From Pseudidiomarina taiwanensis (GTDB lineage Bacteria > Pseudomonadota > Gammaproteobacteria > Enterobacterales > Alteromonadaceae): a stretch of 64,000 bases of DNA. Every line of letters starts with the position of its first letter. The first letter of the stretch is position 1. The stretch lies in contig NZ_PIQG01000003.1 of the NCBI RefSeq assembly GCF_003987435.1, positions 1 to 64,000 on the forward strand, read 5' to 3'. Below are positions 20,343 through 61,042 of this stretch, piece by piece. A program made the position numbers and the translations under genes. A model generated the notes under the pieces. The model worked only from the letters and a program-made list of their open reading frames with translations. It had not been told where the DNA came from and searched no databases.

Positions 20343-20722
20343 TTGGACACTAAGCTGAGCAACCAAGGGCCGAGAATCAGCAGGTTGCTCACGCCTAAGT
20401 TAACCAAGGCAAAAAACACCGCGGCAGAGGCGACATCTTTAGCCTTGCCGCTTAACTCATGACGCTCTGGACCGATTCGGTCAATGGCTGCTTCGATTCC
20501 TGAATTCAAAAGCTCAACCATGAGTAAGATCAGCACCGCAGCAATTAAGACCACCCGTTCAACGGTGGTGATCGGAGCAATACAGGCGATAATAACTAAC
20601 ACCGCCCCGAGTATCATGTCTTGCCGAAATGCGGCTTCTGATTGCCAGGCAAGGCGGATGCCTCGCAGCGAATTACGCGTCGCTGAAATAATGCGCTTAA
20701 CGCCTGTTTCACCGGGTTTCAT
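20339..20722 (-). CDS. dgkA: Diacylglycerol kinase
   Basis: This small trimeric inner-membrane kinase of 127 residues phosphorylates diacylglycerol to phosphatidate, recycling lipid left from periplasmic glucan or LPS modification. It has three transmembrane helices and the active-site stretch VELLNSGIEAAIDRIG (about residues 70-85), with the catalytic Glu and the GxExxxD pattern conserved. An amphipathic N-terminus with SATRNSLRGIRLAWQSEAAF is typical. It lies 9 nt after the acyltransferase-like gene, perhaps in the same transcript. Confidence 0.96.
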   Translation of the reverse strand: MKPGETGVKRIISATRNSLRGIRLAWQSEAAFRQDMILGAVLVIIACIAPITTVERVVLIAAVLILLMVELLNSGIEAAIDRIGPERHELSGKAKDVASAAVFFALVNLGVSNLLILGPWLLSLVSN

Positions 20723-31855: not shown

Positions 31856-33085
31856 ATGTCCAGTTTAGTTTTTGAATCCTTTACGTTTGCCAATGGCCAA
31901 ACCATCAAAAACCGTATCGTTAAGGCCGCGATGGAAGAAAACTTAGGCGCTGAGGGCAATATCCCCGGCGGCCAGCTCTTCACTCTTTACCAAAATTGGG
32001 CACAAGGAGGCGCGGGCCTGTTAATCACCGGCAATGTCATGGTTGATCAACTGGCGATGACTGGACCGGGTGGTGTTGCACTGGAGGCCGAGACAGAATT
32101 GCTGCCATTCGCGGAGTGGGCGCGAGCGGCGAAAGAGAACGACACTAAAGTGTGGATGCAAATTAATCATCCGGGTCGGCAAGTGTATAAGATGCTAAAA
32201 GGGCGTGCTTGGGCACCGTCGGCTGTTGCCCTTGATCTCGGTCCGCATAGCAAACTTTTTGCTGAGCCGCGGGCGATGACTGAGGCCGATATTAATGAAG
32301 TGATTGACCGCTTTGTAAAAACCGCTGAACGTGCCAAAGAGGCCGGTTTTGATGGTGTTCAGATTCATGCCGCACACGGTTATCTGTTATCGCAGTTTTT
32401 ATCCCCACGGGTGAATCAGCGTACTGATGAGTGGGGTGGTTCACTCGAGAATCGTGCACGGTTGCTGCTTGCCATTGTGCGTCATGTCGTGGCACTGCGC
32501 GATGAAAGTTTTGCCGTTTCGGTGAAAATTAACTCAGCTGATTTTCAGCGCGGTGGCTTTGATATTGATGATGCTAAACAAGTGGTGAAATGGCTTGAGG
32601 AGATTGGCATTGATTTAATCGAGATGTCCGGTGGCACCTATGAAGCACCGGCCATGCAACGCCGAACTGCCGATGATCGGACGCTGTCGCGAGAAGCATA
32701 TTTTCTCGAATTTGCTGCGCAAGTGGCGGCAGAAACTGAGCTTGCGGTGATGACCACAGGCGGTATAAAACGTCTTGAAGTCGCCGAGCAAGTGCTCAGC
32801 AGCGGCGTTGATCTGGTCGGGATTGCCAGTGCCCTTGCGTTCGAACCTGACCTACCTAACCAGTGGCAGACCAACCCTGCGGCGGTGGCGAATGTGCAAA
32901 CCGCGGACTGGAACAACAAAACGCTCGCGAGCCTTTGCAATATGGCGCTGGCGAAGCGGCAGATGCGGCGCTATAGCAATGGCGAGCAAGGCAATATTGA
33001 GTTATCGCCAGTGGTCACGCTGCTGCTGAATCAATGGCGCATGAAACGCATGGCGAAGCAGTATAATGCGCTGATTGGCGGGTAA
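31856..33085 (+). CDS. NADH:flavin oxidoreductase (old yellow enzyme family)
   Basis: This 409-residue FMN-dependent TIM-barrel enzyme belongs to the old yellow enzyme/2,4-dienoyl-CoA reductase superfamily. It has the N-terminal KNRIVKAAMEENLG, the active-site FDGVQIHAAHGYLLSQFLSP, NQRTDEWGGSLENRARLL and a C-terminal phosphate-binding MTTGGIKR. No Fe-S or second flavin domain follows, so it is an ene-reductase-like single-domain form. Its substrate is unknown. It lies 17 nt after the thioredoxin-like gene with an AGAGAG ribosome site and is probably in the same operon. Confidence 0.88.
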   Translation: MSSLVFESFTFANGQTIKNRIVKAAMEENLGAEGNIPGGQLFTLYQNWAQGGAGLLITGNVMVDQLAMTGPGGVALEAETELLPFAEWARAAKENDTKVWMQINHPGRQVYKMLKGRAWAPSAVALDLGPHSKLFAEPRAMTEADINEVIDRFVKTAERAKEAGFDGVQIHAAHGYLLSQFLSPRVNQRTDEWGGSLENRARLLLAIVRHVVALRDESFAVSVKINSADFQRGGFDIDDAKQVVKWLEEIGIDLIEMSGGTYEAPAMQRRTADDRTLSREAYFLEFAAQVAAETELAVMTTGGIKRLEVAEQVLSSGVDLVGIASALAFEPDLPNQWQTNPAAVANVQTADWNNKTLASLCNMALAKRQMRRYSNGEQGNIELSPVVTLLLNQWRMKRMAKQYNALIGG

Positions 33086-33125
33086 CGCGATACCGTTAAG
33101 AATCGCTTAAGTTTTGCTCGGCATA

Positions 33126-33161
33126 CTTCACCTTATCGTTATTAAGACATATAAGGTGAAG
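33126..33161 (+). promoter_or_regulatory. 11-bp inverted repeat enclosing the ribosome-binding site of the next gene
   Basis: CTTCACCTTAT (33126-33136) and ATAAGGTGAAG (33151-33161) are perfectly complementary around a 14-nt spacer. The right arm contains the purine-rich AAGGTGAAGG that serves the GTG start at 33169. In RNA this would form a stable stem hiding the ribosome site; in DNA it could be a two-half-site operator. Confidence 0.65.
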
Positions 33162-33168
33162 GCTGACA

Positions 33169-35139
33169 GTGACGTATCGGCAACAACTAGCGAGAACCTT
33201 TGCGCCCTTTATTTATGCGGGCGTAATCACGCTTGGACTGCTGAGCATAGCGCGACTTGGGCTCATTGCCTGGCAATGGCCTCGAGTTGAGACGCTCAGC
33301 GCAGCAGTTAATATTTTAGTTAATGGGATACGAGTTGACCTCAGTACCTTAGGGTACGTATTTGCTATCCCGGCGCTGCTCCATCCATGGTTAGTGGGAA
33401 CCCGCGCCGATAAAATATGGCACGCTGTACTGAAAGTTTGGCTATTTATCGCAACGATTAGCGTGCTGTTCTTTGAGCTAGCTACCCCTGCTTTTATTTA
33501 CGAATATGGGCTGCGCCCGAATCGTCTTTTTATTGAGTATCTCGAATACCCTGCCGAAGTCGGCAAAATGTTGTTGAATGGCCACTTGCTTGAAATCGTG
33601 CTGGTCTCTTTCGTGTTGGCTGGCTGCGCAAGACTGCTCTGGCGTTTTTACAGTCAATATTTAGGCCGAAGTAGTGCGCTTGAGCAAAGTCATATCTTGG
33701 CTCGGGTCAGTGGTTTTGTTGTATTGGCATTGGTGGTGACGCTCATGGCGCGCGGTACCGTAGGGCACCGGCCACTGAATCCAGCCCTAGTCTATTTCTC
33801 CACCGACCCACTGGTTAACTCTTTGACACTCAATTCAATTTACAGTGTGGCGCATGCCTACAAGCAAATGGGGGATGAGAAAAATGCGGCTAAACTCTAC
33901 GGGCAGATGCCTGAAGAACAAGTGATCGAGCTGGTTCGAAGCTCTACTCGGCAGCCACTTGAAGCATTTCAACATCCTACTTTGCCGACTTACCATGCGC
34001 GTTCACCTCTGTACCAAGGTCGACCAAAGAACTTAGTGATCGTGCTTGAAGAAAGTTTGGGAGCACAATTTGTTGGCTCTCTTGGTGGTTTACCCTTGAC
34101 CCCCGAGTTTGATCGCATTCAGCAACAAGGTTGGTCGTTTAAACGGCTTTATGCGACCGGCACGCGCTCCGTCCGCGGTATCGAGGCGGTAATTACTGGC
34201 TTTACCCCTACGCCATCGCGTGCAGTGGTGAAACTTGATAAATCCCAACAAGGTTTTTTCACTCTTGCCGCTTTGTTACAGCAGCAGGGCTATGAAACCC
34301 AATTCATCTATGGTGGAGAAAGCCATTTTGACAATATGAAGAGCTTCTTTTTAGGCAACGGATTCACTGATGTGGTTGATTTTGCCGATATCGAGAACCC
34401 AGACTTTGTCGCCTCTTGGGGCGCAAGCGATGGTGATTTGTTTCGCCAGGCAGATCGTGAGCTAAGCCAATTACATCAACAAGGTAAGCCGTTTTTTAGT
34501 TTTATTTTCACCTCCAGTAACCACGATCCATTTGAGATCCCAACTGGGGTGATTGAGCCAATTGAGTACACTGACGAGCAGCTGGCGCAATATGATGAAA
34601 ATGAACTGCGGCGGCATCAGGCAATCCAGTATGCTGATGCAGCTTTGGGAGATTTCATCGCGACCGCAAAAAACCGTGATTACTGGGATGATACGATCTT
34701 TTTGCTGGTCGCAGACCATGATGCCAAGGTGTTTGGGCGTGATTTAGTGCCAATTGATAACTTTCATATCCCCGGGGTGATTTTAAATGCCGATGTTCCG
34801 CCTCGCCAAGACCCGCGGATTGTGAGCCAAATTGACCTTGCGCCCACCTTGTTATCATTGATGGGAGTCGAGAATCGTTCACCTATGCTCGGTCATGACT
34901 TAAACGATTCCGCGGCAGGAGGCCGTGCATTGATGCAGTACGCCAATAACTTCGCCTATATGGTTGAAGACGAGGTTACAATTTTACAGCCGGGCAAGCC
35001 GCCAAGCTTTTTCTTCTATGATTACGACAGTGGCACCCTGAGCCCGAAACAGCCGAATTTAGGCCTTGCCGATACCGCTCTTGCGATTCAGCTGTGGGGC
35101 AGTATGGCTTACGAGCGCGGTTGGTATGGTACCGAGTAA
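33169..35139 (+). CDS. LTA-synthase-like membrane sulfatase/phosphoglycerol transferase
   Basis: This 656-residue inner-membrane enzyme has five N-terminal hydrophobic helices (about 1-215) followed by a periplasmic sulfatase-fold domain (about 285-600). The pattern LVIVLEESLGAQFVGSLGG includes the metal ligand Glu. YATGTRSVRGIEAVITGF has the Thr nucleophile of the LtaS/OpgB family, and VADHDAKVFG has the C-terminal metal ligands. Gram-negative members transfer phosphoglycerol or phosphoethanolamine to glycans or glycolipids; the acceptor is unknown. The start is GTG, and its ribosome site lies in an 11-bp inverted repeat. The gene ends 7 nt before the convergent yhiN. Confidence 0.88.
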   Translation: MTYRQQLARTFAPFIYAGVITLGLLSIARLGLIAWQWPRVETLSAAVNILVNGIRVDLSTLGYVFAIPALLHPWLVGTRADKIWHAVLKVWLFIATISVLFFELATPAFIYEYGLRPNRLFIEYLEYPAEVGKMLLNGHLLEIVLVSFVLAGCARLLWRFYSQYLGRSSALEQSHILARVSGFVVLALVVTLMARGTVGHRPLNPALVYFSTDPLVNSLTLNSIYSVAHAYKQMGDEKNAAKLYGQMPEEQVIELVRSSTRQPLEAFQHPTLPTYHARSPLYQGRPKNLVIVLEESLGAQFVGSLGGLPLTPEFDRIQQQGWSFKRLYATGTRSVRGIEAVITGFTPTPSRAVVKLDKSQQGFFTLAALLQQQGYETQFIYGGESHFDNMKSFFLGNGFTDVVDFADIENPDFVASWGASDGDLFRQADRELSQLHQQGKPFFSFIFTSSNHDPFEIPTGVIEPIEYTDEQLAQYDENELRRHQAIQYADAALGDFIATAKNRDYWDDTIFLLVADHDAKVFGRDLVPIDNFHIPGVILNADVPPRQDPRIVSQIDLAPTLLSLMGVENRSPMLGHDLNDSAAGGRALMQYANNFAYMVEDEVTILQPGKPPSFFFYDYDSGTLSPKQPNLGLADTALAIQLWGSMAYERGWYGTE

Positions 35140-60739: not shown

Positions 60740-61042
60740 GAAAATTGGCGTCCTTTTTTCTACAAACGAATCTACGAGAGTGAAATAAACATAGCAGTAT
60801 AGCGAATATCACGCTACTGAATAATCGCTATTGTAGCGCTTCTTCGGCGATCAACAGATCATACCTGCTTGATATCATCATTAATCGTTATTATAGGCTT
60901 TATCGAACCCAAGATATTTTCAATTGTGTGAATTGCCACCATCGATAAATTCAATAAAAATCGGGGTGATAGAGATGTAGGCCATAAAAAAAGGCGCCTT
61001 TTGGCGCCTTTTTTAAAATTCGGTGTAAAGAGTCTTATTTTA
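60740..61042. other. 303-bp intergenic region, maeB leader and rpmE 3' end
   Basis: No convincing gene is seen. It holds the rpmE terminator at 60986-61014. Nearer maeB is a set of overlapping inverted repeats: ATAGCGA (60799-60805) with TCGCTAT (60825-60831), and CGCTAC (60812-60817) with GTAGCG (60833-60838). The two pairs interlock, so as RNA they could form only one at a time. The maeB promoter must be here; no clear -35/-10 pair was found. Confidence 0.6.
60986..61014 (-). terminator. Intrinsic terminator after rpmE
   Basis: GGCGCC-TTTT-GGCGCC is flanked by seven A and six T. It works for rpmE transcripts on the minus strand (29 nt after the stop) and is symmetric enough to act in both directions. 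Confidence 0.9.

Follow-up and report, generated by a model that had tools for sequence, protein, structure and literature searches.

In the genome of Pseudidiomarina taiwanensis, a stretch of 64,000 nucleotides (contig NZ_PIQG01000003.1, positions 1 to 64,000; the window in what follows) was found to carry an 11-bp perfect inverted repeat that extends from the -10 element of a putative promoter to the Shine-Dalgarno (SD) zone of an LTA-synthase-like gene of the cell envelope. This arrangement is interpreted, with a probability of roughly 0.6, as a translational insulator embedded in the promoter and directed against read-through, in which the -10/start region is at the same time antisense to the gene's own ribosome-binding site (RBS). 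The gene would possess its own activator-dependent promoter (a PmrA-type box and a -10 element) immediately after a co-directional gene, from which no visible terminator separates it, and the DNA from the -10 element to about +2 would be the reverse complement of the SD/start region. Read-through transcripts from upstream would contain both arms, fold and escape translation, while RNA that starts from the gene's own promoter would be without most of the left arm and be translated, leaving expression to be set by the response regulator rather than by read-through. Three parts of this reading are inferred: where transcription starts, that a PmrA-like regulator binds, and how translation is affected.

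The candidate promoter lies upstream of the repeat and had been missed by an earlier note on this DNA. It consists of a direct-repeat box, TTAAG-AATCGC-TTAAG (33096-33111, forward strand), followed after 10 bp by the -10 element CATACT (33122-33127, forward strand), from which a transcription start zone is predicted at 33133-33136 (forward strand), 6-9 bases past the -10 element. The box is conserved upstream of orthologues and resembles the published PmrA box, for which the consensus CTTAAG-N5-XTTAAT is given in PMC3973317; read as GTTAAG-AATCG-CTTAAG, the box of the window matches that consensus at 5/6 letters per half and forms the direct repeat that it calls for. Many orthologue upstream regions share the layout TTAAG-N6-TTAAG, 10 bases, TANNNT. 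Among 110 homologue loci (L003-L112), 69 have the box at 9/10 letters or better when no filter is placed on the -10 element, and in 53 thinned loci picked by the box alone the hexamer 10 bp past it has T, A and T at positions 1, 2 and 6 in 87%, 91% and 94% of cases, respectively. A sigma-70 scan requiring a -35 element returned 0 promoters in 32950-33300, the box occupying the usual -35 place.

The repeat itself, which the earlier note had described and which the sequence bears out, has its left arm CTTCACCTTAT at 33126-33136 and its right arm ATAAGGTGAAG at 33151-33161 (both forward strand), separated by a 14-base spacer and followed by the GTG start codon at 33169. The left arm covers the last two bases of the -10 element and ends at the predicted start; with the start predicted inside this arm, RNA from the gene's own promoter would therefore be without most of it and could not form the stem. 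The SD zone AAGGTGAAGG (33153-33162, forward strand) overlaps the right arm. Folding of 33100-33200 as RNA gave -29.6 kcal/mol (z-score, z, of -3.75), a value equalled by 0/200 shuffles. In the fold model, the SD zone has an unpaired probability of 0.005-0.016 in read-through RNA, and of 0.36, 0.53, 0.57 and 0.57 in RNA begun at 33133, 33134, 33135 and 33136, respectively. Thus the claim that the stem buries the ribosome-binding site holds for any RNA with both arms and not for the RNA predicted to arise at the gene's own promoter. The earlier note had counted a start in the spacer (33137-33150) or later against its RNA model, and the start predicted here, at about 33133-33136, adjoins that zone. 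A block acting on read-through RNA, which lay outside the options of that note, is the reading that remains. Such RNA is likely, since the upstream gene, an FMN oxidoreductase gene (31856-33085, forward strand; Pfam Oxidored_FMN) that would be its source, is co-directional and ends 10 bp before the box, and no terminator-like site was found in 32950-33300.

Comparison with relatives showed pairing between the -10/start-site region and the SD/start-codon region despite different arm letters. Of the 110 homologue loci, 43 without a usable promoter or start were dropped (L087, for example, has no start codon), as was L008 (136-nt gap), and the remaining 66 were thinned at 80% identity to 50 clusters; start codons and the orientation of upstream genes were assigned by simple open reading frame (ORF) rules rather than with a gene finder, orientation being uncertain for L181 and L147. 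Across the 50 clusters the native duplex energy averaged -10.9 kcal/mol, versus -6.2 kcal/mol when right arms were swapped between loci (0/20,000 permutations). Sliding windows placed the best left segment from base 3 of the -10 element to +2, the reach of the left windows downstream of the start being limited by the room available, and the best right segment between the third base ahead of the start codon and the eighth base past its first position. The excess pairing fades upstream of the -10 element and, within the coding region, has disappeared at +9 and beyond. Strong hairpins (z < -2) were identified in 27 clusters; every one of them has the last -10 base paired, the start codon lies within the right arm in 24, and on average 75% of the paired bases of the left arm lie upstream of +1 and are therefore missing from RNA made at the gene's own promoter. 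Covariation was examined in 27 related leaders, hand-picked from 67. Both-sided pair changes were found in 14 cells, against 5.0 in shuffles (0/500), and pairing cells made up 87.8%, against 83.4% in shuffles (0/500), while a shift of the register by one column lowered pairing to 29-35%.

The strength of the hairpin was also found to differ with the orientation of the upstream gene. For the full region, loci with a co-directional upstream gene (n=44) had a median of -13.65 kcal/mol (z -3.0) and those with a divergent one (n=22) a median of -6.6 kcal/mol (z -0.33), a difference with p 0.0006 on z and 0.0012 on energy; the native/swapped pairing analysis of the 50 clusters gave p 0.006 for the same comparison. 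From the predicted start onward both groups were unstructured (z +0.45 and +0.83), and the sequence ahead of the box was neutral in both (z -0.17 and -0.12). After thinning, z < -2 was reached by 17/24 co-directional clusters with the upstream gene ending within 60 bp, by 7/13 with the gene ending further away and by 3/13 divergent clusters.

A similar difference was observed at other genes behind such boxes. For this comparison 26 sites were taken by hand, chiefly from the genus, excluding LTA-gene sites, duplicates, L140 and L162 (stretches of N) and L183 (where no gene begins downstream on the strand concerned), and leaving the one-mismatch sites L119, L122 and L126 uncounted. The median duplex energy was -12.8 at the 13 co-directional sites and -5.4 at the 13 divergent ones (p 0.0004; p 0.0012 after thinning to 9 and 12 sites, respectively), and swapping of arms gave 0/20,000 for the co-directional and 8,796/20,000 for the divergent sites. 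Among T-hemolysin-family genes, each of the 9 co-directional sites has a lower energy than any of the 3 divergent sites, with 0.2 kcal/mol between the closest two (p 0.016). It is about an even bet that these patterns reflect a cis element which is shared across the regulon and free of any fixed sequence: behind co-directional genes, the DNA from -10 to +2 would evolve as the antisense of the following gene's own RBS or start codon, so that only RNA from the gene's own promoter could be translated. Motif searches would miss such an element, because the pairing is conserved and the sequence is not.

A candidate regulator is encoded in the P. taiwanensis genome (G000:C7:521633), its best model being PmrA, with 212 bits and a cut-off of 330. 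It lies in a run of genes for a PAP2 protein, an EptA-like protein, the regulator, a sensor kinase and a GreB-like protein, at the head of which a second exact box with a -10 element was found. This PAP2-eptA promoter appears to carry the same device, the modelled SD being 0.005 open in read-through RNA and 0.25 open from the predicted start. Upstream of it (L114, 553-1482, forward strand), two overlapping frames have the appearance of a single gene broken by a frameshift or an assembly error. In 26 genomes of the genus, the strict pattern CTTAAG-N5-CTTAAG-N10 followed by a -10 element was found in 14, not including P. taiwanensis itself, and its reversed control in 0; a looser box pattern gave 48 matches in 19/26 genomes, against 5 for the reversed control. 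Among the genes that follow such boxes are the LTA-synthase-like gene, dgkA, a regulator gene of the OmpR family and T-hemolysin-family genes.

Several observations weigh against the proposed insulator or narrow its range. On the protein tree, the effect of orientation was not significant over 6 independent pairs (starred branches), which were scored as 1.8 for, 0.3 against and 3.9 with no difference. Strong hairpins occur in the three divergent clusters L012, L014 and L021 (3/13), and z < -2 is missed by seven near co-directional ones (L020, L024, L041, L048, L054, L058 and L064; 7/24). Divergent LTA loci are themselves somewhat better paired than swapped ones (76/20,000), the distance to the upstream gene has no significant predictive value (p 0.14), and the hairpin is absent from both co-directional dgkA promoters. 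Two of the five covariation measures (pairs with changes on both sides, and pair types) did not exceed the shuffles. Burial in the window is confined to the SD, with the GTG codon 0.51-0.82 open in read-through RNA. Within the P. taiwanensis genome, the box pattern hardly or not at all outnumbered its reversed control (2 versus 2, and 15 versus 13 with one mismatch allowed), so the case for its two boxes rests on the comparison with orthologues. Lastly, no exact TTAA-N7-TTAA was found within 300 bp at 15 loci of Shewanella, Photobacterium and Vibrio, and the device is therefore not general for the family.

Other explanations of the repeat were weighed against this evidence. By itself an 11-bp repeat is statistically unremarkable, since 0.38 perfect repeats of this kind (arms of at least 11 bp, loops of 3-30) are expected per 64 kb from simulated first-order sequences (n=100, at least one repeat in 32/100), and the window holds two distinct ones; it stands out through its position, spanning the -10 element to the SD, and through being conserved in relatives. 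A chance repeat without function is accordingly hard to credit, given that the complementarity is kept with diverged letters both in relatives and at the other box genes. The second repeat of the window, at 60987-61014, has a short loop that suggests a terminator. The earlier note had also raised the possibility of a DNA operator, for a repressor or an envelope-stress regulator, and the overlap of the repeat with the -10 element would suit repressor action. Against this, the arms of orthologues are unrelated in their letters while complementarity is kept, and no second copy of the repeat at up to 3 mismatches was found in the 2.2-Mb genome. An operator for one protein is thus disfavoured and appears quite improbable; conservation of the arm sequence, as expected of a fixed protein motif, was not observed in the orthologues.

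A regulated switch in the 5' untranslated region, whether a thermosensor or controlled by an ion or a protein, would act on a longer transcript of the gene's own, begun upstream of 33126, and would draw on the same burial of the SD by the stem. The -10 element, on the other hand, predicts a start within the left arm, the last -10 base is paired in every strong hairpin, and a covariance-model search of 32900-33400 against Rfam gave 0 matches up to E 1. The modelled opening of the SD went from 0.001 at 4 C to 0.038 at 65 C, staying below 0.04 throughout, which disfavours the thermosensor proposed by the earlier note; no opening of the stem in the physiological range was found, as an RNA thermometer would show. 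A switch of this kind is considered unlikely, as is coupling to upstream translation, another suggestion of that note, with 40 nt separating the upstream stop codon from the stem. Start-site switching in the manner of pyrC, in which slightly more upstream starts give an RNA that folds and later starts one that does not, would fit a left arm that straddles the predicted start and a modelled SD exposure of 0.32-0.40 from starts at 33130-33133 versus 0.53-0.57 from 33134-33136. Most of the arm, however, lies upstream of any plausible start, and this possibility is judged just as improbable as that of an operator.

Related arrangements are known from other systems. The transposase genes of IS10/Tn10 and IS200 are reportedly protected from read-through by a hairpin at the RBS, as Davis in 1985 and Beuzon in 1999, both cited in PMC2965389, are said to have described. 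The likeness to the insulator proposed here would be that transcripts entering from promoters outside the element fold over the start of the transposase gene and RNA from the element's own promoter escapes; the gene in the window differs in that it belongs to a chromosomal regulon rather than a mobile element, its promoter appears to be served by a response regulator, and the arms have diverged between species. In phage T4, the long early RNA of gene e hides the RBS in a hairpin, within which the late promoter starts. A start inside the hairpin may be common to both cases, but in T4 it serves phage timing and not the insulation of chromosomal neighbours. For E. coli pyrC, which is governed by start-site switching, the exact start decides whether the SD hairpin forms; there the arm is downstream of the start and nucleotide levels make the choice, whereas here most of the arm is upstream.

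The type of the box, and the presence of eptA beside a PmrA-like regulator, recall the PmrA regulon as set out in the accessible portion of PMC3973317, which makes no mention of hairpins; the regulator here, moreover, falls short of the PmrA cut-off. According to PMC10433830, dgkA, eptA and an mdoB-like gene of Vibrio vulnificus are grouped under CarR, so that the CarRS two-component regulon joins genes of the same kinds. It differs in its motif (GACA-N6-TACA) and in having one operon, versus the separate promoters found here. A literature search of partial coverage and with narrow terms turned up no chromosomal regulon with an RBS hairpin that silences read-through RNA.

Five genomes of the genus have one near-palindromic box flanked on either side by a -10 element, one oriented toward dgkA and the other toward the LTA-synthase-like gene (L130/L142, L131/L143, L134/L144, L135/L145 and L146/L148). 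In P. taiwanensis, the sole dgkA (Pfam DAGK_prokar) is found in the window at 20372-20674 on the reverse strand, and the one-mismatch box pattern gave no site there, unlike at the dgkA of several relatives. A T-hemolysin-family gene of this genome (G000:C6:148521-149203, reverse strand; L122/L191) has a one-mismatch box, TAAGGT as its -10 element and a short GCCTA/TAGGC repeat in its leader.

The LTA-synthase-like gene itself (33169-35139, forward strand) is an ORF of 656 amino acids with a GTG start, for a membrane protein that also resembles phosphoglycerol transferases. Its product has a Sulfatase domain (Pfam, 169 bits), and scored 59.7 bits with the LtaS model NF053595 of NCBIfam (curated cut-off 970) and 44.8 with the glucan glycerophosphotransferase model PRK03776 (cut-off 574), far below both. 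The closest solved structure is that of the uncharacterised VP1736 (3lxq, 538 bits), and the named relatives of highest identity are from marine genera such as Psychrosphaera, Pseudoalteromonas, Paraglaciecola and Colwellia. The protein was found to be 64% and 63% identical to homologues in two genomes of other genera of the family (G031 and G032) and at most 49% identical to those found in its own genus; as it is nearer to other genera than to its own, the gene may have been acquired or may be another paralogue.

In compact genomes, tightly controlled promoters come to lie directly behind unrelated genes. If the proposed insulator is real, an anti-RBS promoter would stop leaky expression by read-through without any extra sequence or terminator. 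For every operon-internal promoter, complementarity between the -10 to +2 region and the start region would then be predicted, mainly where the upstream gene is co-directional, and cis elements of this kind may be common at operon-buried promoters generally.
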